Shown: piece after piece, positions 9,600 through 54,190 of the stretch
Layout of the letters: each line of letters starts with the position of its first letter
Position numbering within the stretch: the stretch's first letter is position 1
Assembly (NCBI RefSeq): GCF_010093045.1
Contig: NZ_CP048115.1
Span: 3,844,001-3,908,000 of the forward strand
Reading direction: 5' to 3'
DNA from: Mucilaginibacter sp. 14171R-50
GTDB lineage: Bacteria; Bacteroidota; Bacteroidia; Sphingobacteriales; Sphingobacteriaceae
DNA: 64,000 nt
Translations under genes and position numbers: made by a program
The notes under the pieces: generated by a model
What the model saw: the letters and a program-made list of their open reading frames with translations, nothing else
Told to the model about the DNA's origin: nothing
The model's database searches: none

Positions 9600-9638
9600 A
9601 AAAAAAAGCGGTTAACTATGGCTAACCGCTTTTTTTTG
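9600..9638 (-). terminator. Bidirectional terminator
   Basis: AGCGGTTA pairs with TAACCGCT, flanked by eight A on the left and nine T on the right. It lies between the B12 operon (minus, ending 9652) and the upstream side of the sirtuin gene, and most likely ends the B12 operon. Confidence 0.85.
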
Positions 9639-9651
9639 TATTTTATTTAAT

Positions 9652-13423: not shown

Positions 13424-13479
13424 AAAAAAGCATCCACACTCAAGCTTCAATCCCCGAAAGCTGTGAATAATATAATGCT
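13424..13479 (-). terminator. Likely expression-platform terminator of the cobalamin riboswitch
   Basis: On the minus strand AGCAT...ATGCT closes a long composite stem, with CAC/GTG and AGCTT/GAAGCT pairs inside, followed by six T. It begins right after the conserved 3' end of the aptamer and lies 60 nt before btuB, as expected for transcriptional control. Confidence 0.55.
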
Positions 13480-13650
13480 GAGGCAGGTATTCTGACTTAC
13501 TCCCCTTTGCCTGCCTTCCCACCCGCAACTAACGGACAGTGACATTTTTGATGGGCATTGGTTAACAGAGCTTACAGCTGCGGGACAGTTGCGGATTTAC
13601 ACCGTATTCCCTTTTAATTCTCCCGGGAACGTTCTCCCGGCAGAAACCTA
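13480..13650 (-). ncRNA. Cobalamin riboswitch
   Basis: Minus-strand sequence contains the class hallmarks in order: GGGAATACGGTGTAAATCC (13594-13612), CTGTCCCGCAGCTGTAAGC, the B12 box region TGTCACTG (13537-13544), GGGAAGGC, then GTAAGTCAGAATACCTGCC (13485-13503). These match the AdoCbl-type riboswitch. It precedes btuB-btuG-DUF6580 and should turn the operon off when cobalamin binds. Confidence 0.95.
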
Positions 13651-13777
13651 AAGCATGGCAAATGTACTATTACAATTGTTAAACCCAAATATTAATATTG
13701 GCGGCGGCTAAATTAATTTCAATAAAAGAAAACCTGCTGTTTATTAGCGTGTTTAACAGGTATATAATAATTATATT

Positions 13778-32540: not shown

Positions 32541-32544
32541 GATA

Positions 32545-32585
32545 TGGAAATTCTAAAACTCTAAATCTAAACTGATTAAACCGGT
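32545..32585 (-). repeat. Short CTAAA-type 7-nt element between P2 and P1
   Basis: TTCTAAAACTCTAAATCTAAAC shows the CTAAA word three times at 6-8 nt spacing, a weak member of the family seen at 40004 and 59338. Confidence 0.4.
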
Positions 32586-32606
32586 TAACTCAATATTCGT
32601 TATAAA

Positions 32607-35060: not shown

Positions 35061-35178
35061 GATTGATAAACTTAATTTCTAATCTTAAATTTTACGCCTT
35101 AATTTTTTGACAACAGTTAAATAAAGCAGGTTACATCTCGCCGCGTTAATGATCTCTTCTCTGATTAACCAATCCCTA

Positions 35179-37563
35179 TCACTCGCTCCTCAAACTTTTC
35201 ACCGGGTTGGCTATCGCCGCCCTAATTGCCTGAAAGCTTATTGTAGTAAGCGCTACTATCATGGCTAATACACCCGATAAGGCAAACACCCACCACTGTA
35301 TATCAATGCGGTAAGCAAAATCCTGCAGCCATTTATGCATAAAGTACCAGGCTAAAGGGGTTGCTATCAAAAACGAGATAATAACCAGTCGCATAAAATC
35401 TTTAGAGAGCATGTTTACAATGCCCGGGGTGGTTGCCCCTAACACCTTACGTATGCCGATTTCGCGTGTACGCTGGTATGTACTATATGATGCAAGGCCC
35501 AATAACCCCAAACATGAGATTGCGATGGCCAGTATGGAAAAATTGAAAAACAATTTGCCAAAGCGTTGTTCAGCACGATATTGCCTGTCGAAGAATTCAT
35601 CCAGGAAGTAGTAGCTGAAGGGCCTGTTAGGTATTGTTTCTTTCCATTTGCTCTCAATAGCTGCCAGGGTTGCCTGCAGATTCTTTGCTTCTACCTTTAC
35701 CGATACCAGATCAAGATTGCGCAGCTCAACCCGCATGCTTAAAGGCTTTATTTTCTCCTGTAACGACCGGAAGTGGAAATCCTTCATTACCCCCACGATC
35801 TTACCGTCGCGGCCCCATTGTTTAAACCGGCGCCCAATGGCCTGCTGGGGCGATGTATAGCCAAATAGCTTTACAGCTTCTTCATTCAATATCATTGCCT
35901 GTGAGGTATCGGTGTTCATAAAATCCCTTGAGAACGGCCTGCCTGCTACCATTTTTATTTTAAACTGGTTCAGGTAATCAAAATCTACAAAGTAAAGGTC
36001 AAGATTGGCTATTTGCAGGTCGCCTTTATTATTCTCAATTTCTGAGTAAGCGCCCGCATTGCCACCACCCGGTACGCTTGATGAAAGCGCCACAGATTTA
36101 ACCCCGGGTATTGATCTGATGGATTGCTGAAAAGCCTCTTTACCTCTGTCGCCGTTGCTGTCCATCACTATCATTTGGTCTTTTGAGAAACCCAGGTCGC
36201 GGTTACGCATAAAATCCATCTGGTTGTAAACGATGATGGTGCCGATTATTAAAGCTATTGATATCGTAAACTGCGCTACGACCAGGCTTTTTCTTAAAAA
36301 ATTACCTTTAGTACCGGCAGAAAACCGGCCTTTTAAAACCAAAACGGGCTTAAAAGACGAGAGCACCGTGGCCGGGTATATACCTGCCAGCAGGCCAATA
36401 CCAACAGATACGCCAAAAAGGATAAACAGGTAATACCAGTTTGAAAACACACCGGCGCTTATGGTTTTGCCCGACAACTGGTTAAACAGCGGTAACAATA
36501 CCACGGATAATATAACAGTAATAACAAAGGCTATAAGGCACAACACTACCGATTCGCCTATAAATTGCCTTGAGAGTTCGCCTTTAGCTGCCCCTATTAC
36601 CTTGCGAATACCTACTTCTTTGGCCCTTTCTACCGAACGTGCCGTGGTTAAATTAATAAAGTTGATACAAGCAATCAACAATATAAAAACAGCTACAATA
36701 CTAAATATGTAAACGTTGCTGATGCTGCCTACATCCTGCCCGCCTCTTTTAGAGTGCAGGTAAACCTCTGTTAAAGGCTCGAGCGATAAGGTGGCAAACA
36801 TTTGCTGTTTGCGGCTTTGCTCGCCATTACGTTTCTCTACAAACGCCGGAAATTTAGATTGCAGCACTTGGGCATTTACACCGGGCTTTAATAGTAAATA
36901 TGTTGTGGCGCCATAATTGCCCCATTGCTCTTCTATACCTTTGTTAAACCGCTGGGTAAGGGTCGACATTGATATTAGCATATCGGCCTTTATCTGCGAA
37001 TTTTCCGGAATATCCTTCATTACGCCTGTCACCAGGGCCGGAATGGCATCCCCGGTTAATAATACCGTTTGGCCAACAGGGTCAGATGTGCCGAAATACT
37101 TTTTAGCCGCGGTTTCGGTAAATACTATACTTGCCTGCGCAGACAATGCGGTTTGCGGGTTCCCCTTAATGAGCTTGAAATCAAACATCTTAAAAAAGCC
37201 CGAGTCAGCAAATAACGTCTTCTCTTCCTGGAATTTTACATTGCCTTTTCTTACCAGGAAACTACCTCCGCTAACCCTCACAAATGACTCTACTTCAGGG
37301 AAATCCGTTTTGATATTGGGAGCAAACGCCCACGAGGTAACATCGGTAACGATGGTTTCGGAAGGTGTTTTAATATCGGTAACCAGGCGGTAAATACGGT
37401 CGGCTTTGGTATGGAACCGGTCGTAACTGAGTTCAAAAGCCACATACATGAATATAAAAAAACATGCAGTTATCCCTATGGATAAGCCCGTAATATTTAT
37501 AAACGAAAATACGCGGTGCCTCCAAAGGTTTCTCAGCGCGATCTTAAAGTGGTTTTTTAACAT
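35179..37563 (-). CDS. MacB/FtsX-type ABC permease P3
   Basis: A 794-residue permease starting MLKNHFKIALRNLWRHRVFSF. Domain order as in P1. The first coupling helix is SVERAKEVGIRKVIGAAKG, the second RTREIGIRKVLGATT, and the end NPVKSLRSE. Periplasmic domain 1 holds FPEVESFVRVSGGSFLVRKGN, closely similar to FPEVEQAVRFRDRGGFKVRKGD of P8, so these two appear to be a related pair in different clusters. P4 is only 38 nt upstream, which strongly suggests one transcript. Substrate unknown. Confidence 0.92.
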   Translation of the reverse strand: MLKNHFKIALRNLWRHRVFSFINITGLSIGITACFFIFMYVAFELSYDRFHTKADRIYRLVTDIKTPSETIVTDVTSWAFAPNIKTDFPEVESFVRVSGGSFLVRKGNVKFQEEKTLFADSGFFKMFDFKLIKGNPQTALSAQASIVFTETAAKKYFGTSDPVGQTVLLTGDAIPALVTGVMKDIPENSQIKADMLISMSTLTQRFNKGIEEQWGNYGATTYLLLKPGVNAQVLQSKFPAFVEKRNGEQSRKQQMFATLSLEPLTEVYLHSKRGGQDVGSISNVYIFSIVAVFILLIACINFINLTTARSVERAKEVGIRKVIGAAKGELSRQFIGESVVLCLIAFVITVILSVVLLPLFNQLSGKTISAGVFSNWYYLFILFGVSVGIGLLAGIYPATVLSSFKPVLVLKGRFSAGTKGNFLRKSLVVAQFTISIALIIGTIIVYNQMDFMRNRDLGFSKDQMIVMDSNGDRGKEAFQQSIRSIPGVKSVALSSSVPGGGNAGAYSEIENNKGDLQIANLDLYFVDFDYLNQFKIKMVAGRPFSRDFMNTDTSQAMILNEEAVKLFGYTSPQQAIGRRFKQWGRDGKIVGVMKDFHFRSLQEKIKPLSMRVELRNLDLVSVKVEAKNLQATLAAIESKWKETIPNRPFSYYFLDEFFDRQYRAEQRFGKLFFNFSILAIAISCLGLLGLASYSTYQRTREIGIRKVLGATTPGIVNMLSKDFMRLVIISFLIATPLAWYFMHKWLQDFAYRIDIQWWVFALSGVLAMIVALTTISFQAIRAAIANPVKSLRSE

Positions 37564-37601
37564 AAAAATTCTTGAAAAAATTGAACTTATTTACTGGTTT
37601 T

Positions 37602-39998
37602 TTATTCGCTTCGTAAGCTTTTTACGGGGTTTGCAATCGCAGCTTTGATGGATTGAAAACTAATGGTTACCAAAGCGATGAATACCGATACCAACGCAAC
37701 AAATACAAACGTTCCCCAGGTTACATTAATACGATAGGCAAAATCCTGCAACCAGCGGTTCATTACGTACCATGCCAGCGGCCAGGCTATCAGGTTTGAT
37801 ATTAGCACGAGTTTTATAAAATGACCCGACAGCAACATCACAATGTTTTGTACCGATGCCCCTAAAACTTTGCGTACGCCTATCTCTTTAATCCGTTTTT
37901 CGGCAGAGAATGATGCAAGCCCGAACAAGCCAAGGCACGATATCAGGATGGCCAGACCGGCAAGTATGCCCACTATTTTGCTCACCTGGTCGTCTGCACG
38001 GTAAACCTCTGCAAAGTGGTCGTCTAAAAATTGGTATTCAAACGGATAACCGGGTATCAGGCTCTCCCAGGTAGATTTTATATAAGCTACAGCTTCTTTT
38101 GATTTCCCCGGCTTTATTTTTACCGAAACCGTGCTGAAGCCCCATTCATCCTGGTTTACAATAAACAGGTTTTCAACCTTATAGTGCATCGAGTTAAAGT
38201 TGAAATTTTTGGCTATACCGGTTATAACCCCAAGCGAATCGTAGCCGAAACGCTGGCCTATCAACGATTCTTCTTTAGCCTTTGGATGATCTTTCAAAAG
38301 CTCTTTGGCCATCGCTTCGTTTATAATATACTCGCGGCCGTTTGCTGACTTTTCGGGAGAGAAATTCTTCCCTAACGCCATTTTAATATTGTACACTTTC
38401 AGGTAATCATCATCAACTACAAGCTGTGTAGCAGCCATTTCCCGCGCAGGCGAATTGTTATACTTAAAAGTAACGCCCGATTGGTCTAAGTGGCTGCCCA
38501 ACTGATCCTGAGATGCGGTGACGCCCGTAACCAGGGTATTGCTTAACAGCGCCTGTTTAAACACCTGGTACTTTTGCCCCGAGATCCTGTCGAGCGGGAT
38601 AGTAACCACCTGCTCGCGGGTAAAACCAGGATCTTTTTGCTGCATAAATCTTAACTGTTTTACCACAAAAGCCGTAGCGATCATCAAAAACACGGCGCTT
38701 GTAAACTGGCCGATAACCAGCACATTGCGCAGCGTGCCCTTATTTTTGCCGGTATTTACCGATCCCTTTAAAACCTTTACAGGTTGAAAAGACGAAAGGA
38801 ACAATGCCGGGTAAATGCCCGAGATAATGCCAACCATTATAGTGCTCAGCAAAATTACCAGCAGGAACGAAGGTTTGCTGAATACCGGCAGCGTTATATC
38901 CCGCAGGCTCAGGTGGTTTACATACGGCAGAGCCAGTTCTACCAAAATAATCGCAAGCACCAATGCCAGTAACGAGAGTAATATGGTTTCGCTTAAAAAT
39001 TGCAGCGCCAGCTGCAACCGGTGGGCGCCTATTGATTTACGGATACCTACTTCTTTAGCCCTATCTGCCGAACGGGCGGTAGATAGGTTCATGAAGTTGA
39101 TACATGCTATAATGAGCACAATGAAGGCTATAATGGCAAATAGGTTGGTTGATTTTTGATCGAATTTTTGAAAGTTCAGGTAATCCAGTCCTATATCCGC
39201 AGCTTTAGAATGTACATCTTTCAACGGCAGGTAAAACAACTCGTAATATTTCCAGCCCTCGCCGTCCATGTGTTTTTTTAAGAAGGCAGGCATTTTTGCT
39301 TCAAAGGCCCTCAGATCAGTGCCGGGTGTAACTTTAAGATAGGTGTTTAGCCAGTTGCCGCCCCATCTATCCATCCATTTTTGTTGAATGCCTGGCAACG
39401 AATACAAAGCATCAAACTGCAACTGCGAGTTTTTGGGGCAGTTTTCCATAACGGCAGTTACCGTAAATTTTACTGTATCGCCACCGTAGTGGTTTATAAC
39501 TTTACCTATCGGGTCTTCCTTTCCGAATAACTTTTCGGCGGTTTCCTGTGTAAGGGCTATACTGTTGGGTTTTTCAATAGCATCTTTTGCGTTACCCTTT
39601 ATAACCTTAAAATTGAAGATATCCAGAAAGGCCGAGTCGACCGCAAAAACCTGTGGCAAAAACACCCTTGTTTCGCCATTGGTCATCTGGTACTTGCGGT
39701 CCCATTTTACGCGCGTGTAGCTCTTTACTTCAGGGAATTCTGCCTTAAGCGCGGGTGCCATCGGGAACATAGATAAGCCTACCTTTTGCGATGCCGCCAT
39801 CCCCGGAAACTTCTGCACCTCGTTTAACCTGACGATGTTATCGCCGTGAAAGTTGTCGAAACTTCTCTCGTACGATACAAACAACAGGATAACTATGCAC
39901 GCGGCCATTCCAATGGCAAGGCCAACAATGTTAATAGTTGATGAAACCTTGTTTTTCCAAAGGTTGCGCCAGGCGATCTTGAAATAATTTTTTATCAT
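37602..39998 (-). CDS. MacB/FtsX-type ABC permease P4
   Basis: A 798-residue permease starting MIKNYFKIAWRNLWKNKVSST. First coupling helix SADRAKEVGIRKSIGAHRL, second RIKEIGVRKVLGAS, end NPVKSLRSE. Periplasmic domain 1 (LNEVQKFPGMAASQKVGLSM and following) and domain 2 have no close match among the other permeases here. Thirty-eight nt separate it from P3; upstream, 161 nt with a long CTAAATG heptad array separate it from P5. Substrate unknown. Confidence 0.92.
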   Translation of the reverse strand: MIKNYFKIAWRNLWKNKVSSTINIVGLAIGMAACIVILLFVSYERSFDNFHGDNIVRLNEVQKFPGMAASQKVGLSMFPMAPALKAEFPEVKSYTRVKWDRKYQMTNGETRVFLPQVFAVDSAFLDIFNFKVIKGNAKDAIEKPNSIALTQETAEKLFGKEDPIGKVINHYGGDTVKFTVTAVMENCPKNSQLQFDALYSLPGIQQKWMDRWGGNWLNTYLKVTPGTDLRAFEAKMPAFLKKHMDGEGWKYYELFYLPLKDVHSKAADIGLDYLNFQKFDQKSTNLFAIIAFIVLIIACINFMNLSTARSADRAKEVGIRKSIGAHRLQLALQFLSETILLSLLALVLAIILVELALPYVNHLSLRDITLPVFSKPSFLLVILLSTIMVGIISGIYPALFLSSFQPVKVLKGSVNTGKNKGTLRNVLVIGQFTSAVFLMIATAFVVKQLRFMQQKDPGFTREQVVTIPLDRISGQKYQVFKQALLSNTLVTGVTASQDQLGSHLDQSGVTFKYNNSPAREMAATQLVVDDDYLKVYNIKMALGKNFSPEKSANGREYIINEAMAKELLKDHPKAKEESLIGQRFGYDSLGVITGIAKNFNFNSMHYKVENLFIVNQDEWGFSTVSVKIKPGKSKEAVAYIKSTWESLIPGYPFEYQFLDDHFAEVYRADDQVSKIVGILAGLAILISCLGLFGLASFSAEKRIKEIGVRKVLGASVQNIVMLLSGHFIKLVLISNLIAWPLAWYVMNRWLQDFAYRINVTWGTFVFVALVSVFIALVTISFQSIKAAIANPVKSLRSE

Positions 39999-40003
39999 GA
40001 TGG

Positions 40004-40160
40004 TTTAAATTCTAAACGCTAAATGCTAAATGCTAAATGCTAAATGCTAAATGCTAAACACTAAATTCTAAACTCTATTGGTAAATGCTAAATGCTAAAC
40101 CCTAAATTCTAAACTCTAAATGCTAACAGTTCACCTCTCTCTACTCACCATTCACCAACT
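40004..40160 (-). repeat. Long 7-nt tandem array between P5 and P4
   Basis: From 40012 at least ten consecutive heptads in register: CTAAACG, five CTAAATG, CTAAACA, CTAAATT, CTAAACT, CTATTGG. It then continues as GTAAATG and further CTAAA units to about 40125. Between 40131 and 40160, next to the P5 stop codon, the word changes to TCACCAT-like heptads. Confidence 0.85.
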
Positions 40161-42574
40161 CATTCGCTTTTTAAACTTTTTACAGGGTTCACAAGCGCTG
40201 CCTTTATAGCCTTGTACCCCACTGTTACCCATGCTATAACTATAGATAAGGCGATAGACATAGCAAATATCCCTACCCCCGGATGTATTCGATACGTAAA
40301 GCCTTGCAGCCATTGCTGCATAAAATACCATGCAACGGGCGCCGAAATAACGAATGATATTAAAATGAGTATGGTAAACTCCTTGGAGAACAGGTATACG
40401 ATATTTGCTACCGATGCACCCAACGTTTTACGGATGCCTACCTCTTTTGTGCGTTGTACCGCCATAAACGATACCATGCCATACAAGCCCAGGCAGGATA
40501 TAAAAATGGCTATCCCCGCAAAAATCTTGTAGAGCTGTGACAGCTGACTTTCCTTTCTGTAAAAATTCTCTATTTTCTGATCCAGAAATTTGTGTTCGTA
40601 GATATTTTCGGGGAATGTTTTTGTCCACAGCTTTTCTATGATGGCGAGTGTGGGCTGCATATTTATTGGCGAAAGCTTAATGTTTGCTATGCCGTACTGG
40701 CCTGTCCAGGCCCCCATAACTACCGGTGGTATCTGTTCGCGTAATGATGTTACGTTGAAATCTTTTACAACGCCAACAATTTTTTGGGTTAGATTTTTAT
40801 CTCCCCAAATGTTTATGGTTTTGCCAATAGCATCTTTAGGGTTGGTTACGCCAAGGTTCTTTAGAAGAGTCTCGTTAACTACATAGGCGTTTACCGTATC
40901 GCTTTGGCTGTATGGGCCGCCGGCAACAAACTTCAGGTTGTAAAGCTTAAAATAATCGGCATCGGCCCATTTTAAATTTACCCTAAATTCGGTTTCTGTG
41001 GCGGCATTGTCGTAAGTGATAGGCGTGCCCCAATTGGTGTTATCAGACGGGCTGGTAAAGCTATAGCTAAAGCTTTTAACATTTGGCTGTTGCAGTATCT
41101 CGTTCCGCAAGGCGGCCATTCTCAGGCGGCTAACGCTGTCGCCGGGCAGGCTTACTGTTACTACTGCGTCTTTATCGAAGCCCAACGGCGAGTTTTTAAA
41201 ATGGTTTAACTGGCTAATGACGACTAAAGTAGCTATTACAAGCACCTGTGCTATGCCAAACTGCACTACCACAAGCGCGCGCCTAAGAGTAATGCCATTG
41301 CTCCTAACCCCGGTTATTTTATTTTTTAAGGCGGTTATGGGGTTAAAGCCCGATAGTACCATTGACGGGTACACGCCTGATAATAAAGTAACCACTATGA
41401 GTACCGCTCCTAAAAATGCAATTATAACCCCATCATTAATAAAGCCGGCGGCCAATTTGATCTCCAGCAGGCGGTTTAAAGCAGGCAAAGCAGCTTCGCT
41501 CAACGCTATGGCAAGCAAAACAGAAAACAAGGTGATAATGAAAGTTTCGCTTAAAAATTGTAATATGAGCTGTCTACGCTTGCTTCCTAACACTTTCCTT
41601 ATACCTACTTCTTTCGAACGGTTAACGGCCTGGGCTGTGGCCAGGTTAATAAAGTTAACGCAGGCTATCACCAGTAAAAACACCCCGATAAGGCTTAATG
41701 TCCTGATCATATCCTTGCTAAATACCTGGCCGTTGAATAGCCCTGTACGGGTATCAAAATGCATCTCGGTTAAAGGCTGTAATAAAAACGCTTCGCGTTT
41801 TGCTTCGTCAGGGCGGTGTTTTTTTATAAACGGCACCAGTTGTTTGTTAAACTGCGCTTCGCTAACGTTAGCGGGCAGTACAACAAAACAATTGTGCGAT
41901 CCAAAATTACTACCCCAATCCTCCAGGTTATTCTTATAGTCGGTTTGTTTTATGGTTGCGTACGATATAGCTATATTAACAGGCAAATCGGTATTTACTG
42001 GCAGGTCCCGCAGTATCCCAGTAACTTTAAGGTCTGTCTTATTTTCATAAGTGATGGTTTTACCCATTGCGTTTTCCCAATTACCAAAAAATTTCCTGGC
42101 CATGCGTTGGGTAAGCACAACAGTGTTGGGCTCGGTTAACGCTGTTTTTTTGTTTCCGGTAACCCAGGTAAAATCAAACACGTTAAAAAATTCGGCGTCG
42201 GTAATATAAAGATCGTCCTCTTTAAACCTTTTTATTTGCCCGGCGGCATCTTTAACACTTAGTTGCTTGCCGTCATCATTAATAACCGATGTTACCAGTG
42301 GCAATTGTGGAAAATCGATCCGCAGGTCCTTTTCTATGGGGAAAGGCAAACCAGACCTAAACTTAACACCTTCGGACGATGTGCGCTTATTCAACACCCG
42401 GTAAATACGATCCTTTTTAGTGTGATAGGTATCAAAGCCGGTTTCAAAATGTATCACTAAAAATATAAGCAAACAGGCAGCTATGCCAATGGCCAGGCCT
42501 GTAATGTTTATAATAGTATAGCTTTTGTTACGAAGCAAACTGCGCCAGGCGGTCTTAAAATAATTTTTGATCAT
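40160..42574 (-). CDS. MacB/FtsX-type ABC permease P5
   Basis: An 804-residue permease starting MIKNYFKTAWRSLLRNKSYTI. First coupling helix AVNRSKEVGIRKVLGSKRR, second RTKEVGIRKTLGAS, end NPVKSLKSE (Lys for Arg). It forms a clear subfamily with P6: both share LRIDFPQ in periplasmic domain 1, MHFDT before the second membrane block and a RRALVV.QF.IAQ.L.I.T segment before periplasmic domain 2. A local duplication is likely. P6 lies 122 nt upstream, with another heptad element between. Confidence 0.92.
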   Translation of the reverse strand: MIKNYFKTAWRSLLRNKSYTIINITGLAIGIAACLLIFLVIHFETGFDTYHTKKDRIYRVLNKRTSSEGVKFRSGLPFPIEKDLRIDFPQLPLVTSVINDDGKQLSVKDAAGQIKRFKEDDLYITDAEFFNVFDFTWVTGNKKTALTEPNTVVLTQRMARKFFGNWENAMGKTITYENKTDLKVTGILRDLPVNTDLPVNIAISYATIKQTDYKNNLEDWGSNFGSHNCFVVLPANVSEAQFNKQLVPFIKKHRPDEAKREAFLLQPLTEMHFDTRTGLFNGQVFSKDMIRTLSLIGVFLLVIACVNFINLATAQAVNRSKEVGIRKVLGSKRRQLILQFLSETFIITLFSVLLAIALSEAALPALNRLLEIKLAAGFINDGVIIAFLGAVLIVVTLLSGVYPSMVLSGFNPITALKNKITGVRSNGITLRRALVVVQFGIAQVLVIATLVVISQLNHFKNSPLGFDKDAVVTVSLPGDSVSRLRMAALRNEILQQPNVKSFSYSFTSPSDNTNWGTPITYDNAATETEFRVNLKWADADYFKLYNLKFVAGGPYSQSDTVNAYVVNETLLKNLGVTNPKDAIGKTINIWGDKNLTQKIVGVVKDFNVTSLREQIPPVVMGAWTGQYGIANIKLSPINMQPTLAIIEKLWTKTFPENIYEHKFLDQKIENFYRKESQLSQLYKIFAGIAIFISCLGLYGMVSFMAVQRTKEVGIRKTLGASVANIVYLFSKEFTILILISFVISAPVAWYFMQQWLQGFTYRIHPGVGIFAMSIALSIVIAWVTVGYKAIKAALVNPVKSLKSE

Positions 42575-42587
42575 AATTGTGAAAATT

Positions 42588-42700
42588 CGAAATCCTATAC
42601 GCTAAACCCTAAATTCTAAACGCTAAATCATAAACCCTAATTCAGGCTATCACTTCTGCTGTTCACTACTCACCGTTCACCCCTCACAACTCACCATTAT
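42588..42700 (-). repeat. 7-nt-periodic element between P6 and P5
   Basis: CTAAACC, CTAAATT, CTAAACG, CTAAATC on the P5 side, then TTCACTA, CTCACCG, TTCACCC, CTCACAA, CTCACCA exactly in register next to the P6 stop codon (42662-42696). Confidence 0.8.
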
Positions 42701-45099
42701 TCGCTTCGCAGGCTTTTAACCGGGTTTACCATAGCTGCCCTTAATGCTTTGTAACCAACCGTTAACCATGCTATAGCTATTGACGAAACAATAGCCAGCA
42801 CAAATACACCGACGGTAAGCGGTATGCGGTATGCAAAGTTTTGTAACCAGCCCGACATGATATACCACGCCAATGGCATAGCTATTAAGAATGCTACAGA
42901 AATTAGTATCATAAATTCTTTGGAGAACAGGAACACAATATTGAATACCGAAGCCCCCAATACTTTGCGTACACCTACTTCTTTGGTGCGTTGCACTGCC
43001 ATAAAGGATACCAGCCCATATAAGCCGAGGCATGAAATAAATATGGCTATAGCCGCAAATATTTTGTAAACCAAAGCCAGTTGGTTTTCCTGCCTGTAAA
43101 ACTGCGCTATGTTTTCATCCAGGAAATAACCGTTATAGGCATATTCCGGGTAGGTTTTTTCCCAAAGCTGCTGTATGTCCTTAACAGTTTTGCTTAAGTT
43201 TTTTGTCTGGATCTTGACAGCCACCTGCGACCAATTTGATTTTGCAGACGTTATAAAAGTTGGTTTAACAGCGTCGCGTAACGAGTTGGTTTTAAAATCT
43301 TTCACAACGCCGGTTATAGGCATCCAGCGGCCGCTGCCTATTTTTATGGTTTTACCTATCGCCTCCTCTGCATTACGGATGCCCAATTTGTGCACCAGCG
43401 TTTCGTTAACTACTGCCTGGCGGGCCGTGTCGCTTTCGTCATAGCCTTTACCCGCAGCAAACTTCAGTCCGAACGTTTTGAAATAATCCGCATCGGCGAA
43501 TTTTAAAAAAACGGTAAACGATACATCTTTTGGCGAGCCGTCAAAGTAAAAATTTGATCCCCAGTTATTTTCTGATGATGGCGCATCCGAGGCGAAACTC
43601 GTAGCCTTTACATTGGGGTTTTGCAGTATTTGCTGTTTAAATGAATTTACTTTGCTCAGGCTAACACTATCTGTATAGCCGGGGATAACCAATACGGCGT
43701 TTTTATTAAAGCCAAGGTCGGCTTCGTTTACAAAGTTCATTTGGTTTACCGCTACAATGGTCCCGATGATAAGTAACTGGGCAATGGCAAACTGGGCAAC
43801 CACCAGGGCGCGGCGTAAGGGTATGCCGCCAATTGATGCAGCTGTTATTTTATTTTTTAATGCAGCCACGGGTTTAAAGCCCGAGATTACCAACGCCGGA
43901 TAAATACCCGATAGCACTATTACTGCCAGCATGGTACATACCAGAAATATGGCCGTATCTGTATTTATCAGACCAATATCATCAGGTACGCTTGATATAT
44001 TTTTAAGATAGGGTAAAGCTATTTTTGCTATAACCACTGCCAATATCACCGAAAATGCAATAACCAGGGTAGTTTCGCCAATTACCTGCGCCACCAGTTG
44101 TTTGCGCGTGCTGCCCAATACTTTACGGATGCCAACCTCTTTTGAGCGCCCAACCGATTGCGCGGTTGAAAGGTTGATGAAGTTGATAGACGCCATTAGG
44201 ATGATCAAAATAGCGATAAAGGTTAGTGTACTGATGGTTGCCTTGCTGGTAGAATGGTCGCCAAGTGTATTGCCTATCAGTGTATCAAAGTGCATTTCGG
44301 CAAGTGGCTGCGCCAGATGCGTTCGCGCAGCACGTTTATCAGTCAGGTTCTTTTTGGTGAAGCCCACCAGCTGCGCCTCGAATTTTTGGCGGCTTAGGTT
44401 TTGGGGCAGTTGTAAAAATATCTGGTGATTACTGCTTATAGATCCCCATTCGTTATTGTAGCTGTATGTTTTGCCGCTTTGTTTCCAGGTGATGTACGAT
44501 ACCATTATTTTTAAGGGTATATCGCTGTTACTTGGCGCATCTTCAACTATACCGGCAACCCGTAAGGTTAAGGTGTTATCCATTTTAATGGTTTTACCCA
44601 TTGCCGTATTCCAATCGCCGAAATATTTTGTTGCGATAGCTTTGGTAATAACAACCATATTGGGCTGCGAAAGCACTTCTTTAGAACCGTTAAGCCACCT
44701 GGTTTGAAAAATATCGAAGAACTGCGGTTCCATAAAGAAAACCCCGATTGGCTCAATAAACTTCTTATCGTCCGTACCGGATACGGTCATCTGGCTGCCG
44801 TAGCTTGATGTTAAAGCAGCAAATTTTACCTGCGGAAAATCAATCCTTAAGGCATCAAGCGCCGGCACAGATACGCCCGGGTTATAGTTTATGCCATCTT
44901 CAGCCGTTTGTTTGGTAACCAGGTGGTAGATGTCATCAAAGTTTTTATTGAATTTATTAAAGCTTAGTTCAAATTTGAGGATAACAAATATGAGCAGACA
45001 GGCGCCAATGCCTACGCTTAAGCCCGAAATGTTGATTATAGAGTGCGCCTTATGACGGATGATATTCCTCCAGGCAATTTTGAAGTAATTTTTTAACAT
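42697..45099 (-). CDS. MacB/FtsX-type ABC permease P6, first gene of cluster 1
   Basis: An 800-residue permease from ATG 45099 (MLKNYFKIAWRNIIRHKAHS); an upstream ATG at 45141 would add 14 residues absent from the other ten. First coupling helix SVGRSKEVGIRKVLGSTRK, second RTKEVGVRKVLGAS, end NPVKSLRSE. Closest relative in the window is P5. A 215-nt region upstream, ending at the trpB gene, contains the 18-bp element shared with the ATPase promoter, so the cluster 1 transcript probably begins here. Confidence 0.92.
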   Translation of the reverse strand: MLKNYFKIAWRNIIRHKAHSIINISGLSVGIGACLLIFVILKFELSFNKFNKNFDDIYHLVTKQTAEDGINYNPGVSVPALDALRIDFPQVKFAALTSSYGSQMTVSGTDDKKFIEPIGVFFMEPQFFDIFQTRWLNGSKEVLSQPNMVVITKAIATKYFGDWNTAMGKTIKMDNTLTLRVAGIVEDAPSNSDIPLKIMVSYITWKQSGKTYSYNNEWGSISSNHQIFLQLPQNLSRQKFEAQLVGFTKKNLTDKRAARTHLAQPLAEMHFDTLIGNTLGDHSTSKATISTLTFIAILIILMASINFINLSTAQSVGRSKEVGIRKVLGSTRKQLVAQVIGETTLVIAFSVILAVVIAKIALPYLKNISSVPDDIGLINTDTAIFLVCTMLAVIVLSGIYPALVISGFKPVAALKNKITAASIGGIPLRRALVVAQFAIAQLLIIGTIVAVNQMNFVNEADLGFNKNAVLVIPGYTDSVSLSKVNSFKQQILQNPNVKATSFASDAPSSENNWGSNFYFDGSPKDVSFTVFLKFADADYFKTFGLKFAAGKGYDESDTARQAVVNETLVHKLGIRNAEEAIGKTIKIGSGRWMPITGVVKDFKTNSLRDAVKPTFITSAKSNWSQVAVKIQTKNLSKTVKDIQQLWEKTYPEYAYNGYFLDENIAQFYRQENQLALVYKIFAAIAIFISCLGLYGLVSFMAVQRTKEVGVRKVLGASVFNIVFLFSKEFMILISVAFLIAMPLAWYIMSGWLQNFAYRIPLTVGVFVLAIVSSIAIAWLTVGYKALRAAMVNPVKSLRSE

Positions 45100-45195
45100 A
45101 ATTATGGCAATATGTTTTATAACAGTTAAAACATATACCAAATTAGTAAGTGACTAATAACCAGGTATTTATAAAGATTTACAAGCGTGCTATAT

Positions 45196-45242: not shown

Positions 45243-45318
45243 GTTAAAAGTCGAAAGTCTTTAGTCCAAAGTATAAATAGCGACTTTAGACTGAAGGCTT
45301 TCGACTATAGACTTTTTA
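45243..45318 (-). repeat. 7-nt-periodic inverted element downstream of trpB
   Basis: AAAAGTC, GAAAGTC, TTTAGTC, CAAAGTA, TAAATAG, CGACTTT, AGACTGA, AGGCTTT, CGACTAT, AGACTTT in exact 7-nt register. The second half is the reverse complement of the first in kind, so the region can fold into a long hairpin and probably ends the trp message. Confidence 0.8.
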
Positions 45319-46497
45319 AAACCCAAAATGCCTGATATAAGTATCCAGGTCCTTATCCCCCCTGCCCGAAAGGCAGATCACTACATTATCGCTTTTTTGG
45401 AAGGTCATTTTTTCGAGATAAGCAAGCGCGTGCGCTGTTTCAATGGCCGGAATAATGCCCTCCATTTGCGAACATAACAGGCCGGCATTCAGGGCTTCAT
45501 CATCAGTGATGCTTACATATTTGGCGCGGTTTATTTTGTACAGATGCGCGTGCTGAGGGCCTATGCCCGGGTAATCCAGCCCGGCAGATATCGAATATGG
45601 TTCTTCTACCTGCCCGTCGGCCGTTTGCATCAATATGGTGCGGCTGCCGTGCAATACGCCTTCTTTTCCCAAAAATGTGGTTGCAGCCGAGTGGCCGCTG
45701 TCAACGCCTTTACCTGCTGCTTCAACAGCTACCAGTTTTACGGCTTCGTCGTCTAAAAAATGATAGAACATGCCCATGGCATTACTGCCGCCGCCCACGC
45801 AAGCCAGAGCGTATTGAGGCAATTCGCTGCCGGTTTGCTCCAATAGCTGTTTTTTTGTTTCGGCAGATATTACCGACTGAAACCTTGCCACCATATCAGG
45901 GTATGGGTACGGCCCTACTACCGAACCGATAATGTAATGGGTATCAACCGGGTTCCCTATCCAGTCGCGCAGAGCCTCGTTGGTGGCATCCTTCAACGTT
46001 TTGCTACCCGACGTTGCCGGTACTACCCTGGCGCCCAGCATTTTCATACGTGCCACATTCGGAGCCTGGCGCTCCATGTCAATCTCGCCCATGTAAACAA
46101 TACATTCAATACCTTTCAAGGCGCAAACCGTAGCCGTTGCTACCCCGTGCTGACCGGCGCCTGTTTCGGCGATGATGCGTTTTTTGCCCAAACGCTGTGC
46201 AAGCAATATCTGCCCTATGGCGTTGTTTATTTTGTGCGAACCGGTGTGGTTCAGGTCTTCGCGCTTAAAAAAAATGTTAGCCCCATATTTCTCAGAATAT
46301 CTTTTAGCATGATACAACGGGGATGGCCTGCCCACATAGTCTTTTAACAACTGGTCAAACTCTGCGGTAAAGCCGGGGTCGCTTATTATTTTGATGTATT
46401 CCTGCCTTAACTCTTCAACATTAGGATACAGCATTTCGGGGATATAGGCACCGCCAAAATCTCCGTAATAGCCTTGTTCGTTAACTCCGTACTTCAT
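45316..46497 (-). CDS. trpB: Tryptophan synthase beta chain
   Basis: Joins indole and serine to tryptophan with PLP. 393 residues, normal length. Visible: [16 protein letters not shown] at the start, the PLP lysine in [13 protein letters not shown] near residue 83, [10 protein letters not shown] near 110, the phosphate-binding [11 protein letters not shown] near 227 and CLSGRGDKD near 377. It is the third gene of trpD-trpF-trpB; its start overlaps the end of trpF by 17 nt, indicating coupled translation. trpA, which normally follows, is not here; permease P6 begins to the left instead. Confidence 0.97.
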
Positions 46498-47122
46498 TGC
46501 TGTTAAATGTGTTTATCGTAGTAAATGCTTGTGTTAGTTTATTTATATCCTTTAATGCTGGCGATACCTCAAATTTGCTGTTCAGATCTACCCCATAAAA
46601 TGCGGGATGCTTTATCTGCTTTACTTCTTCCAGGTTGTCTAAACTCAATCCTCCCGATAAAAGGAAAGGCACATCCAGTGTATATTTATCAAGAATAGTC
46701 CAATCAAACGTCTTCCCCGAACCGCCGTACGCCGCCGTTTTTGTATCGAACAGGAAATAATTCACATTGTTCTTGTATGCTTTCAGTTGTGTAAAATCAA
46801 AATTTTCGTCTACACCAAATGCTTTTATTACCTCCACCTCGTGTTTAAACATCCCGCAAAACTCCGGGCTTTCACTGCCGTGAAGCTGTATAGCGTCGAA
46901 CTTATACTTATATATTAATTTACTGATGGTATCTGCATCCTCATCCACAAAAACGCCAACTTTAGCAATATCTGTAGAAATATTTACCAGTTCATCATCC
47001 TCCATTGCGCCAATAAAACGCGCCGACCTATCGTAGCAAATAAAGCCCATATAGTCAGGCCTTATACCGGCAACAGCCTTAATGTTATCACTATCCCTTA
47101 ATCCGCAAACTTTAATTTTCAT
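46481..47122 (-). CDS. trpF: Phosphoribosylanthranilate isomerase
   Basis: Amadori rearrangement step of tryptophan synthesis. A 213-residue TIM barrel. Starts [14 protein letters not shown], with the catalytic Cys at residue 6, then [19 protein letters not shown] near 53, IQLHGSE near 79, the Asp in [18 protein letters not shown] near 124 and LSGGLSLDN near 155. It begins 1 nt after trpD ends and overlaps trpB by 17 nt. trpC, usually between trpD and trpF in relatives, is missing. Confidence 0.95.
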
Positions 47123-47123
47123 T

Positions 47124-48113
47124 TTAATTGGCTATTAACGCTTTAAAGCTGCCCAGTGCCTTTTTGCTTATCAGCGATTCTTCGGCCTCGTAAAAGCAAT
47201 CGGCAAAGCTTTTTTGCGGATGAATAGTTTTAATTGCCATAGCGGCGTTGCTTAAAACCACGCTGGTTTGGGCAATCGTCGCATCATCATTAAGCACCTT
47301 CATAAATATATCTGCTGAATCGCTTACGGTATGCCCGCCGGTTATTTCATCTTCGTTTAGTTTGCCAAAACCAAGGCTTTCAATGCTATTTATTTTCTCG
47401 CCCTCGGCCGAAAACGTTTTAAAATCGCAGGTGAGCGAGATCTCATCGTAACCATCCAGCGCGTTCAGTATGGTATATTTTACTTCTGACTTTTGATACA
47501 GGTAAGCATATATCCTTGCCAGCTCAAGGTTAAACACCCCCACCATTTGGTTTTGCGGCTTAGCCGGGTTTACCAACGGGCCAAGCATATTAAAGAATGT
47601 TTTTACGCCAAGCTCTCGGCGTATTGGTGCTACGGTTTTCATGGCCGGATGAAACAAGGGCGCGTGCAGAAAGCATATATTAGCCTTATCGATGCTGCGC
47701 TTCAATGCATCGGTGTTGTTGGTGAACACATAACCCAGGTGCTCCATTACGTTTGACGACCCACAGCCCGAAGAAACGCCATAATTGCCATGCTTGGCAA
47801 CCTTATATCCTGCACCGGCTACCACAAATGATGCAAGTGTTGATATATTAAAAGTATCCTTGCCATCGCCGCCGGTGCCGCAAAGGTCTATCAGTTCGCC
47901 GGTTTGCAGGTCAACCGGCAGGCAAAGCTCCAGCATGGCATCCCGAAAACCCTCCAACTCGTTAACCGTAATGCTGCGCATGCAATACGCCGTCATAAAA
48001 GCGGCCATTTGCGAGTTATTGTATTTACCCAGCGCTATATTCAACAAAATTTCTTTCGACTGTTCGCGGGTAAATGTCTTATGTTCAAAAAGGTGGTTAA
48101 GTATCTGTTTCAT
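47124..48113 (-). CDS. trpD: Anthranilate phosphoribosyltransferase
   Basis: Transfers phosphoribosyl from PRPP to anthranilate. 329 residues. The PRPP loop GTGGDGKDTFN near residue 80, then KHGNYGVSS near 107, SSNVMEHLG near 119, and RRELGVKTFFNMLGPLVNP near 165 are standard. It is the first gene of the local trp cluster and stands behind an attenuator with a Trp-rich leader peptide, so its expression should fall when charged Trp-tRNA is plentiful. trpE and trpG are not adjacent; divergent KirBac lies upstream. Confidence 0.96.
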   Translation of the reverse strand: MKQILNHLFEHKTFTREQSKEILLNIALGKYNNSQMAAFMTAYCMRSITVNELEGFRDAMLELCLPVDLQTGELIDLCGTGGDGKDTFNISTLASFVVAGAGYKVAKHGNYGVSSGCGSSNVMEHLGYVFTNNTDALKRSIDKANICFLHAPLFHPAMKTVAPIRRELGVKTFFNMLGPLVNPAKPQNQMVGVFNLELARIYAYLYQKSEVKYTILNALDGYDEISLTCDFKTFSAEGEKINSIESLGFGKLNEDEITGGHTVSDSADIFMKVLNDDATIAQTSVVLSNAAMAIKTIHPQKSFADCFYEAEESLISKKALGSFKALIAN

Positions 48114-48123
48114 AATAGGCCAT

Positions 48124-48151
48124 AAAAAAAGGGTCGCCGTATTGGCAACCC
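48124..48151 (-). terminator. trp attenuator terminator (3:4 hairpin)
   Basis: On the minus strand GGGTTGCC (48144-48151) pairs with GGCGACCC (48131-48138), eight pairs including one T-G, 5-nt loop, followed by seven T. It lies 10 nt before the trpD start. GGCAGCC (48182-48188) can pair with the GGTTGCC arm instead, giving the competing antiterminator. Confidence 0.88.
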
Positions 48152-48181
48152 TTCTGTATATTTATCAAAAACAAAAAATGA

Positions 48182-48211
48182 GGCTGCCTTACGAATTCTC
48201 GTTAAGCCACC
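48182..48211 (-). promoter_or_regulatory. trp leader 1:2 (pause) hairpin and antiterminator arm
   Basis: GGTGGCTTAACGA (48199-48211), which overlaps the second and third Trp codons, pairs with TCGTAAGGCAGCC (48182-48194) with two mismatches. A ribosome stalled on the Trp codons would cover the first arm and free the second for pairing with the terminator arm. Confidence 0.7.
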
Positions 48212-48242
48212 ACCAATTGTTATTTAATATCTGCACTTTCAT
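48189..48242 (-). CDS. trpL: trp leader peptide TrpL (17 aa, three consecutive Trp)
   Basis: A short frame ATG 48240-48242 to TAA 48189-48191 encoding MKVQILNNNWWWLNENS. The three TGG codons (48207-48215) stand in the place expected for ribosome-mediated attenuation, followed by the alternative hairpins and a terminator just before trpD. Three Trp in seventeen residues is far above chance. No other function is needed for the peptide. Confidence 0.88.
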   Translation of the reverse strand: MKVQILNNNWWWLNENS

Positions 48243-48392
48243 ATTGTTAAGGCAAATATGGAAATTGTTTTCGCCAAAAGCAAGCATAATAATATTTTTA
48301 CGGAAGCAATTAGTGAATATTGAATTATCGGTTACAAATCCAAATATCAGGCTGTTCATAAATCAATAAGTCCGCCTGATCACTAAATAACC

Positions 48393-49337
48393 ATGGCTAT
48401 ACGCAAACAACATATCAACCCCGAGAACGATCTTGGCTTCGGCCCTCAGCCGGTGATCAAAAACCAGCCGCTTATTAATAAAGATGGTTCGGTAAATGTA
48501 AAGCGCAGGGGTTTATCGAGGTTTAATACTGCGGATACCTATCACACGCTCATTAAAATGAGCTGGGCAAGGTTTTGGGTAGTGGTACTCAGCGGATATT
48601 TGATCGCTAACCTGTTTTTTGCATCTATTTATGTATTGATAGGGATGGATAGCCTGGATGGCGCATCGGCGCATAACCATATGAGCCATATGCTTGATGC
48701 ATTCTTTTTTTCGGCGCAAACCATATCTACGGTGGGTTACGGGCATATCAGCCCGCGTGGAGTGATAGCCAACAGCGTGGCCGCCTTCGAATCGATGATT
48801 GGTTTGCTGGCCTTTGCGCTGGCTACCGGCTTGCTTTACGGGCGTTTTTCAAAACCATCAGCAAAAATAGTCTACAGCGAAAATATGGTGGTTGCCCCAT
48901 ACGGCGATAATGGGCGCGGATTGATGTTCAGGTTGGCCAATATCCGTAAAAACGTGCTGATAGATCTGGATATACAGGTCATTTTTTCGTACAACGAAGT
49001 TGTTGACGGCAAACCTATACGCCGTTTTTTCCCTTTAGAACTTGAGCGTAAATATGTGAGCCTGCTTACCCTAAACTGGACCATTGTGCATCCGCTTGAT
49101 GCCAACAGCCCGCTGATTGATATGATATACGAGGATCTGGAAACTTACCAGGCGAGCTTTTCGGTATTGCTGAAAGCGTTTGATGATACTTTTTCGCAAA
49201 CGGTGCATTCGCGTACATCCTACATAGCGCAGGATATGGTTTGGAACGCCAAATTTGTGCCTATGTTTACCCGCGATGAAGATGGCAGGATAGAACTGGA
49301 TATGGGTAAAATAAGTGAATTTGATATGGTTCATTAG
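48393..49337 (+). CDS. Inward-rectifier-type potassium channel (KirBac family)
   Basis: A 314-residue K+ channel of the inner membrane. Two membrane helices (about residues 52-78 and 128-150) flank a pore helix and the selectivity filter TVGYG near residue 112. The C-terminal ~165 residues form the cytoplasmic IRK-type Ig-like domain, beginning AKIVYSENMVVAPYGDNGRGLMFRLANIR. This matches KirBac architecture. A slide helix before the first membrane helix (TYHTLIKMSWARFW) is also visible. Single gene, divergent from the trp cluster, ending at a heptad-type hairpin. Confidence 0.93.
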   Translation: MAIRKQHINPENDLGFGPQPVIKNQPLINKDGSVNVKRRGLSRFNTADTYHTLIKMSWARFWVVVLSGYLIANLFFASIYVLIGMDSLDGASAHNHMSHMLDAFFFSAQTISTVGYGHISPRGVIANSVAAFESMIGLLAFALATGLLYGRFSKPSAKIVYSENMVVAPYGDNGRGLMFRLANIRKNVLIDLDIQVIFSYNEVVDGKPIRRFFPLELERKYVSLLTLNWTIVHPLDANSPLIDMIYEDLETYQASFSVLLKAFDDTFSQTVHSRTSYIAQDMVWNAKFVPMFTRDEDGRIELDMGKISEFDMVH

Positions 49338-51782: not shown

Positions 51783-54149
51783 CTATTCGCTTCGCAGGCT
51801 TTTCACCGGATTAACTAATGCCGCTTTAATGGCCTGCCAACTTACGGCAACCAGGCATAAAGCAATACTTAAAAACAGCGTTGCCGCAAATACCCAGATA
51901 GTGACATTGGTATGGTAAGTATATGTGTTTAGCCAGCGGTTTACATTATACCAGCTTATTGCCGCTCCAATTACAAAAGATATCAATACCAATTTAATAA
52001 ACTCCTGCGAGAGTTTTAGCCAAAGCCCGGCAGTTCCTGCACCCAGTATTTTCCGGATGCTTATTTCTTTCCCCCGCCGTTCGGCCGAGAACGATGCCAG
52101 GCCAAAAAGGCCAAGACCCGATATAATGATGGCCAAACACGTAAACATTACCGCCATTGCCCCCAACTGCTGCTCGGTTTTAAATTTCTGATTGAAGCTT
52201 TCGTCTGTAAATGTATAATCGAACGGGTAAGTTGGGTTGTATTTTTTATAGATATCCTGCAAAAGTTGTATGTTTTTTGAAACGGAGTTGGCTGGGTTTA
52301 ACCGCATGCCGATATTCCCGACCCAGCCTTTGGTAAACCCTATTATAGTGGGCCGTACAGCATCGTACGGCGAGCCCCAAACAAAGTTTTTTGCTACGCC
52401 GATAATTGTACGCCCGGCATTCATCCATGTAATTTTTTGCCCCACGGGGTCTTTCAGTTTCATTAGTTTTACCGCGGCCTCATTTAAGATAACCGCTGTT
52501 GAATCGGAAAGCCTGTCAGTAGCAAAATCGCGGCCTTCAATAATCTTTATCTGGTAAGTGTTCAACATATGATAGGTAACAGCTATGCAATCTATCGGCG
52601 TCTTTTCCTCCCCCGGTAGCTGGCCCGGCCATCTGTTTTGCCATGTGGCGCTGGTTATTTTGGTAATAGGCTCTGATATGCTGGCAGCGTCGGTAATGGC
52701 GCCTGCACTGATAGCCTCCCGCCTGAAACTATCAAACTTATCGAACATAGCGCCATCTGCAGGCAATTCAATAAGGCCGTTGCGGTTATAACCAATGGGC
52801 AGCTCTTTTATATAGTTGATTTGCCTGTGAATAAAAAAGCTGAATACCACCAGGCATATGGCAAATGTAAATTGTATAACAACCAACACCTGGCGCGGCC
52901 TTACGGTTGTTTCTGCATTAAAAAACCGGCCTTTTAATACCCTAACCGGGTTAAAAGATGAAAGAAAGAGCGCCGGATAGCTACCAGCAAACAGGCCGGT
53001 AACTGCCGTCGTCGTTAGTGCTATTAACCATACCCATAAATTGCCATACGGGATATTTAACATGATACCGGTTAAATCAGCAAACACAGGGGTTAAAACC
53101 AATATCAATATTACTGACAGGATAAACGCTGCAAATGCCAGTAACAGGGATTCGCCCATAAACTGTTTGATAAGCGCTGTACGCCCGGCGCCTATTGCCT
53201 TACGAATCCCTACCTCCCTGGCCCGCTTTTCGGACCGGGCGGTAGATAAGTTCATGAAATTTATACAGGCGATAACCAGTATACCAATAGCCAGAAACAG
53301 GAACAAACGTAAATAGCTGATACGACCGCCCACGTTAACACCATCTTTAAAATCGCCGTGTAAATGCAATAGGGTAAATGGGTACATAAATAGCTTAACC
53401 TCTTTATCGGGCGGGAAATACCTGCCGATAAGGTCTTTTATCTTTACGTTAACGGCTGCTGCTGATGCATTAGGTTTTAGAAGTACATAAGTGGCGTATC
53501 CATAATTATCCCAATTTTCGCCTTTTAACCATGGCTGCTGCGACAGGAACGCATCCCATGAGATAATAGCCTTAAAAGTGAAGCTCGAATTTCCCGGGTT
53601 ATCTTTGATTACCGCGCTAACCTTCATCGGAAACTGGTTATTGTATTTTACAACCTGGCCCAGCGGGTTCGTGTTCCCGAATATTGCTTTAGCGGTCGAC
53701 TCCGTAAGTATCACAGACGAAACATCAGACAAGGCGCTGCGTTTATCCCCTTGTATAAAGTCAAAGCTGAACATATCCATTATACCCGCATCCATAGCCA
53801 CCGCATTAAATTTTAACCCTTTACTATTGTAGGCTATTAAAACGTTTTTGGGCTCGTTTATGCGGGCTGCATTTGCTATCTCGGGAATGTCTTTCTTTAA
53901 TGCACCGGCAAGTAATTGTGGTGTAAACCACTTGGTGCGTATCTCGCCGTTAGTTGGCTGGTTTTTAAAAACCTGGTACAGCCTATCGCCGTTTAAGTGA
54001 AATTTATCAAAGCTGTATTCGTTGTAAACATAAACCAGCAGCATAAAGCTTACCGCCATACCTATAGCCAACCCGCCAATATTTATCAATGATGATATTT
54101 TGTTTCGGGTAAGGTTTCTCCAGGCTATTTTCAGGTAGTTTTTTATCAT
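51783..54149 (-). CDS. MacB/FtsX-type ABC permease P7, last gene of cluster 2
   Basis: A 788-residue permease from ATG 54149 (MIKNYLKIAWRNLTRNKISS); an upstream ATG at 54176 would add nine residues. First coupling helix SEKRAREVGIRKAIGAGRT, second RGKEISIRKILGAG (more divergent than in the others), end NPVKSLRSE. It forms a clear pair with P10: both carry N.P..G.I at the start of periplasmic domain 1, a WPG motif in domain 2 and FVWGSPYD/E..RP. A strong terminator separates it from P8, so it is probably transcribed separately. Confidence 0.92.
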   Translation of the reverse strand: MIKNYLKIAWRNLTRNKISSLINIGGLAIGMAVSFMLLVYVYNEYSFDKFHLNGDRLYQVFKNQPTNGEIRTKWFTPQLLAGALKKDIPEIANAARINEPKNVLIAYNSKGLKFNAVAMDAGIMDMFSFDFIQGDKRSALSDVSSVILTESTAKAIFGNTNPLGQVVKYNNQFPMKVSAVIKDNPGNSSFTFKAIISWDAFLSQQPWLKGENWDNYGYATYVLLKPNASAAAVNVKIKDLIGRYFPPDKEVKLFMYPFTLLHLHGDFKDGVNVGGRISYLRLFLFLAIGILVIACINFMNLSTARSEKRAREVGIRKAIGAGRTALIKQFMGESLLLAFAAFILSVILILVLTPVFADLTGIMLNIPYGNLWVWLIALTTTAVTGLFAGSYPALFLSSFNPVRVLKGRFFNAETTVRPRQVLVVIQFTFAICLVVFSFFIHRQINYIKELPIGYNRNGLIELPADGAMFDKFDSFRREAISAGAITDAASISEPITKITSATWQNRWPGQLPGEEKTPIDCIAVTYHMLNTYQIKIIEGRDFATDRLSDSTAVILNEAAVKLMKLKDPVGQKITWMNAGRTIIGVAKNFVWGSPYDAVRPTIIGFTKGWVGNIGMRLNPANSVSKNIQLLQDIYKKYNPTYPFDYTFTDESFNQKFKTEQQLGAMAVMFTCLAIIISGLGLFGLASFSAERRGKEISIRKILGAGTAGLWLKLSQEFIKLVLISFVIGAAISWYNVNRWLNTYTYHTNVTIWVFAATLFLSIALCLVAVSWQAIKAALVNPVKSLRSE

Positions 54150-54190
54150 GGATCGGGTTACGCGGTTTACTTCCACAATATCAGGACTGT

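Follow-up and report, generated by a model that had tools for sequence, protein, structure and literature searches.

A predicted leader-peptide attenuator upstream of trpD in Mucilaginibacter sp. 14171R-50 and its conservation among relatives with a split trp pathway

The trp leader of E. coli carries two Trp codons, against three in the leader described here. In the Bacteroidetes, a trp-associated RNA, Bacteroid-trp, was listed by Weinberg et al. 2010 as a probable cis-regulatory RNA of this phylum and not as a riboswitch (PMC2864571), and a later paper described it as a trp attenuator upstream of the trp operon of Flavobacterium psychrophilum (PMC6414381); the transcriptome of this species also carries signs of leader-peptide attenuation before amino acid operons (PMC9723704). 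In this report, we analyze a stretch of 64,000 nucleotides of the Mucilaginibacter sp. 14171R-50 genome (the window) and propose, from sequence and modeling, that it very probably encodes an attenuator of trpD-trpF-trpB transcription that is ribosome-mediated and senses charged tRNA(Trp). This kind of RNA is already known as Rfam family RF01692, and the window's family is largely missed by the current Rfam model; the new points are modest, namely family-wide conservation and covariation, two separately attenuated halves of the pathway and near-leaderless leader ORFs.

RF01692 is the best Rfam match of the window (42.4 bits, E 0.00043 over 201 nt); this score is under the gathering cut-off of 49, and formal membership by score is therefore not claimed. 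The context is nevertheless that of the family, with a Bacteroidetes genome, Trp biosynthesis genes downstream and a short ORF with at least two Trp codons, and a homologue from Sphingobacterium siyangense passes the cut-off with 51.6 bits. In a survey of 296 genomes, RF01692 exceeded the cut-off in 27, almost all from a single family; no genome of the window's own family was among them. Recognition is reciprocal: a model of the trpD leaders built without RF01692 (R1) recovers many RF01692 loci in other families (for example G360, G335, G498, G425 and G219) and matches RF01692 loci of family f54, located before trpE. Many of the class-level R1 matches at E <= 0.01 (145/395) are weak, and 29 of the best 30, which were checked, adjoin a trp gene. 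Two weak R1 matches in the window, at 9603-9697 and 2597-2719, have no Trp ORF, resemble ordinary terminators and were set aside. A pattern search of the genome for other WWW leaders was uninformative, control patterns matching as often or more.

Anatomy and initiation of the trpD leader

Read on the minus strand from 48283 to 48113, the locus consists of a predicted promoter, ten nt, the leader ORF, segment 2, a spacer, a hairpin with T7, ten nt and trpD. The features are as follows.

48253..48283, minus strand: predicted Bacteroidetes sigma-A promoter, TTG (48283-48281), 20 nt, CATATTTG (48260-48253); from sequence
48189..48242, minus strand: trpL leader peptide ORF, MKVQILNNNWWWLNENS*, 17 codons; from sequence, with a conserved Trp-rich ORF in 75/76 Sphingobacteriales loci
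48207..48215, minus strand: three tandem Trp codons TGGTGGTGG, codons 10-12, proposed stall site; from sequence, with conserved TGGTGG columns
48187..48206, minus strand: 1:2 hairpin, CTTAACGA (48206-48199) with TCGTAAGG (48194-48187); folding, compensatory changes in 4/7 pairs
48144..48188, minus strand: 2:3 antiterminator, GGCAGCC (48188-48182) with GGTTGCC (48150-48144); folding, pairing in 60 leaders, stall simulation
48124..48155, minus strand: 3:4 intrinsic terminator, AGAAGGGTTGCC / GGCGACCCTTTT plus T7; folding, 97% of cells paired, compensatory changes in 5/10 pairs
47124..48113, minus strand: trpD, anthranilate phosphoribosyltransferase, proposed first controlled gene; TIGR01245, 293.8 bits, over cut-off
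46481..47122, minus strand: trpF, phosphoribosylanthranilate isomerase; 13/13 NCBIfam matches PRAI or PRAI-fusion, best 5.3e-50, under cut-off
45316..46497, minus strand: trpB, tryptophan synthase beta; TIGR00263, 583.5 bits, over cut-off

The leader ORF runs from an ATG at 48242 to a TAA at 48191-48189. Segment 2 (GGCAGCC, 48188-48182) lies immediately 3' of the stop codon, and an AT-rich spacer separates it from the GGGTTGCC...GGCGACCC hairpin, in which segment 3 is GGGTTGCC (48151-48144) and segment 4 is GGCGACCC (48138-48131); seven T follow at 48130-48124, then 10 nt and the trpD ATG at 48113. The 1:2, 2:3 and 3:4 pairings are mutually exclusive. An earlier sequence-only reading of this DNA had described the 17-codon frame with three TGG codons, the hairpins, the T7 tract and the 10-nt gap, and all of these are correct to the base.

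The folding energy of the whole 147-nt leader is -42.1 kcal/mol (z = -3.94, better than in 199 of 200 shuffles), that of the terminator alone is -19.0 kcal/mol (z = -6.2 against shuffled sequence) and that of the 2:3 form without segment 4 is -16.5 kcal/mol (z = -3.0). The terminator is more stable than the antiterminator at equilibrium, so the switch must be kinetic, and kinetics lie beyond what folding can prove. The terminator at 48124-48155 was missing from the list of a generic terminator scan, probably because its stem extends into the T run and breaks the tail rule of the tool.

The predicted promoter lies only about 10 nt 5' of the leader ATG, and transcription is expected to start a few nt before this ATG. 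A motif of the form NAnnTTTG, corresponding to the TAnnTTTG consensus for Bacteroidetes promoters (PMC7366714), occurs in 72 of 75 sequences at a distance of 3-19 nt 5' of the leader ATG, a -33 TTG stands 17-23 nt farther upstream in 71 of 75, and the -7 motif ends 5-12 nt before the ATG in most loci. If transcription starts a few nt after the -7 motif, the predicted 5' UTR is about 0-8 nt in most loci and the leader ORF would be nearly leaderless; a Shine-Dalgarno-like stretch was found in only one of the 75 leaders and not at that of the window. In those Bacteroidetes transcriptomes that have been mapped, few mRNAs start without a 5' UTR or with a very short one (5.5% of mRNAs leaderless in F. 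psychrophilum, PMC9723704; about 3.7% of 5' UTRs under 10 nt in Bacteroides thetaiotaomicron, PMC7366714), which makes the near-leaderless trpL a consistent and slightly unusual feature. Such ORFs bear on translation-transcription coupling in Bacteroidetes, where initiation proceeds without Shine-Dalgarno sites, and the mechanism proposed here assumes this coupling. The sequence-only reading had named a transcription start downstream of 48242 as evidence against attenuation; TTG-N20-CATATTTG at 48283-48253 instead predicts a start just upstream. The intergenic region of the trpD promoter is common to a divergent gene on the plus strand (48393-49337) with a potassium-channel-like TVGYGH motif, and this gene (cluster c5) stands beside trpD in most Mucilaginibacter and many Pedobacter loci.

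Conservation, covariation and predicted switching

Using the TrpD of the window as query, we collected 80 loci from named genome records, of which 76 belong to Sphingobacteriales and the nearest relatives to Mucilaginibacter. A Trp-rich short ORF and a terminator in the same layout precede trpD in 75 of these 76 loci, in Mucilaginibacter, Pedobacter, Pelobium, Pararcticibacter, Parapedobacter and Sphingobacterium; the 75 include one locus cut by a contig end with TGGTGGTGG still visible (L049), and the sole locus of the 76 without a leader lies on a MAG contig (L073). The leader reads WWW in nearly all loci, the exceptions being CWW in L009 and WWC in L052. Among 60 aligned leaders, the TGGTGG columns are invariant or nearly so and among the most conserved, and the ORF is retained where the peptide around the Trp codons varies. 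It is also retained where inserted repeats or hairpins change the spacing between terminator and trpD, which ranges from 5 to nearly 400 nt. In four Pedobacter loci (L038, L040, L046 and L050), the inserts are repeated hairpin or MITE-like elements of the GGTTCGTGTCTCCACGAACC type, up to about 390 nt upstream of trpD.

The hairpins covary. In the 60-sequence alignment, both sides have changed in 9 of the 17 pairs of the 1:2 and 3:4 hairpins, for example at one terminator pair, where 11 sequences have C-G in place of G-C, and at the pair closing the 1:2 loop, where 16 have C-G in place of A-U; cells with changes on both sides number 69, against 26.1 +/- 3.7 in shuffles. In total, 91.8% of hairpin cells are paired, against at most 52% with the pairing slid, and a slide of one column roughly halves the paired cells. 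The 2:3 helix is likewise paired in 86% of cells, against 18-50% when slid, with changes that are one-sided (G-U) only and none compensatory; this is expected because segment 3 must pair with two partners, although it remains weaker support. The alignment of relatives that the sequence-only reading had proposed thus finds Trp codons and hairpins conserved with compensatory changes, and the lack of conservation that it had set as a counter-indication is not what was found.

Conservation and covariation rule out a chance origin of the attenuator. A plain factor-independent terminator next to a chance short ORF, with the trpD promoter downstream of the hairpin, would find room in those Pedobacter and Mucilaginibacter loci where the gap between terminator and trpD reaches about 390 nt; however, a promoter does not fit into the 10 nt between the T run and the ATG in the window, Trp codons and hairpins are kept across genera, and the -7/-33 motif holds a fixed place upstream of the leader, which together leave this explanation with hardly any probability.

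Switching was simulated by folding each of 64 leaders to the end of segment 3 with the ribosome-covered region blocked to 12 nt past the first base of the A-site codon, and the results are thermodynamic predictions with an assumed footprint. The median number of expected 2:3 pairs was 0.15 with no ribosome, 8.8 with a ribosome at the first Trp codon and 2.9 with a ribosome at the stop codon, where the terminator probability was 0.96. The antiterminator was formed at the first Trp codon and lost at the stop codon in 62 of the 64 leaders; switching was poor in L026 and L052, and the 1:2 hairpin was a weak competitor in L001 and other close relatives. In a control in which only the stretch containing segment 2 was shuffled, stalled 2:3 pairing exceeded the shuffle mean in all 64 leaders and their own 90th percentile in 51, the values for the window being 11.6 against 4.9 +/- 3.7. 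In these simulations, stalling at Trp frees the antiterminator.

A terminator with a competing helix would fit any antitermination mechanism, including one in which the short ORF plays no part and a TRAP-like, Trp-binding protein or a T-box, a tRNA-binding RNA, operates the switch. We give such a switch only a very slim chance, since few alignment columns are as conserved as the Trp codons and the ORF persists despite its varying peptide, Rfam reports neither a T-box nor any other known riboswitch here, and no run of (G/U)AG repeats is seen in the leader. Two other RNAs were noted, a cobalamin riboswitch (RF00174, 97.4 bits) at 13465-13666 on the minus strand of the window, just 5' of a TonB-dependent-receptor-like gene (11346-13364, minus strand), and a Flavo-1 RNA (RF01705, 46.3 bits), a motif of unknown function, at L046:3456-3612 near the trpD locus of Pedobacter alluvionis.

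Proposed mechanism and the split trp pathway

Ribosome-mediated Trp attenuation, the reading first made from sequence, is strongly supported by the conserved Trp codons, the hairpins with compensatory changes and the predicted upstream start. The locus has the marks of this mechanistic class, a tandem-Trp leader ORF and an antiterminator and terminator that exclude each other, with a stall freeing the antiterminator in simulation (prediction only). Given the elements present, the way they are conserved and covary, and their thermodynamic switching, we infer stalling, termination and regulation in vivo as follows. Transcription would start a few nt before the leader ATG, as the promoter motif suggests, and a ribosome would begin, with no Shine-Dalgarno site, at the AUG close to the 5' end and read the 17 codons. 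When charged tRNA-Trp is scarce, it would stall on codons 10-12 and cover segment 1, so that segments 2 and 3 could pair while segment 4 is still to be transcribed, and RNA polymerase would read into trpD. When Trp is plentiful, the ribosome at the stop codon would cover segment 2, the 3:4 hairpin would form and transcription would end within the run of T. Without translation of the leader, 1:2 would form and termination would again be favored. This reading gains further support because the downstream genes are those of Trp biosynthesis and because the sister trpE-trpG-trpC unit has an independent Trp-coded leader and terminator.

The trpE-trpG-trpC unit lies about 2.65 Mb from trpD in contig coordinates (C1:1239131) of the same genome, and its own leader MKNTNLNTNWWHYVKTWQPDSF* and GC-rich terminator (L081:1340-1475; G000:C1, about 1238970-1239105) were absent from both the Rfam gathering search and the search at E <= 0.05. 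All 30 trpE loci examined in the family have a leader ORF with a terminator, and adjacent Trp codons are present in 27; the other three, of genus g3, have a lone Trp there (NNNWRSLPKRKAG*, NNNWQSLPKRKAGWCF* and INSWQKLPKREAGWCF* in L106, L107 and L108), possibly marking a decaying or differently tuned attenuator. A third location (C1:3499177) holds trpA, where no Trp leader was found, only a promoter-like site TACTTTTG near the ATG. Directly 3' of trpB, the window and its close relatives (L001-L005 and L036) carry an array of paralogous FtsX/MacB-type permeases of about 800 aa, most ending NPVKSL(R/K)SE (30126-45141 and 51783-54176, minus strand); in most other relatives trpA is found there.

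Other Bacteroidia families keep these genes together in a single trpEGDCFBA operon headed by a WWW leader. In the Cytophagales loci from the same TrpD search, a WWW leader precedes trpE and the order is trpE-G-D, then trpC and the later genes. We also read the gene order of 17 further loci from other families of the class, chosen from R1 matches: an R1 match stands at the head of all 17, and 15 have the seven genes in the order E-G-D-C-F-B-A, while another stops at a contig end after trpC and the last starts with trpB. Read most simply, these arrangements point to the break-up, in the Sphingobacteriaceae lineage, of an attenuated operon, each half of which is attenuated today. The attenuator stands at trpD because of this split; the surprise that the sequence-only reading had expressed at a trp attenuator in such a genome, and before trpD, is accordingly dispelled, as such elements are common in Bacteroidia and RF01692 had already been described. 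The second leader may be a duplicate of the first or have an independent origin, the R1 scores of the family trpE leaders being only 22-27 bits. We also entertain, as a doubtful speculation, that each half kept or acquired its own attenuator at the split so that trpE-G-C (WW..W) and trpD-F-B/A (WWW) could be tuned to different levels of tRNA-Trp charging, optionally with RNA cross-talk.

A split pathway with a nearly leaderless trpL parallels Sinorhizobium meliloti, where rnTrpL acts on trpDC (PMC7298713), and by this precedent the released attenuator RNA or peptide might also act in trans on the other trp unit. Duplex energies for the trpD attenuator with the trpE start region, the reverse pair and attenuator with attenuator were, however, no better than shuffled controls in seven genomes; a trans-acting attenuator RNA was rejected on this negative test, and we regard trans action as highly improbable. 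The family offers a clear example from nature of a single attenuated operon giving rise to two units that are each attenuated.

Comparison with known systems

The locus resembles S. meliloti trpLE(G) (rnTrpL/peTrpL; PMC7298713) in its near-leaderless trpL and in a trp pathway split over several operons. In S. meliloti, only trpE(G) is attenuated and the RNA acts on trpDC in trans, whereas in the window genome both main halves are attenuated and no trans pairing was found. The likeness to the E. coli trp leader (RF00513) lies in the tandem Trp codons within the 1:2 region, the 2:3 antiterminator and the 3:4 terminator with its T run, while the differences are the missing Shine-Dalgarno site, the very short predicted 5' UTR, trpD and not trpE downstream, and genes in separate units; the window scores 25 bits with RF00513, under its gathering cut-off of 41. 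The earlier label of an E. coli-style attenuator thus holds for the logic but not for initiation, with no Shine-Dalgarno site and almost no 5' UTR.

Bacteroid-trp (RF01692) shares with the window the phylum, the pathway, the Trp-codon leader and, after this leader, hairpins with the GGCUUGUC/GGUUGCC terminator arm, although its Rfam consensus structure fits the 1:2 region of the window only partly. Our covariation-backed alignment adds an entire family to this RNA class of the Bacteroidetes, which is known but experimentally unproven, and unlike the inspected RF01692 genome hits, which precede an intact trpE-first operon, the element in the window heads a detached trpD-F-B half.
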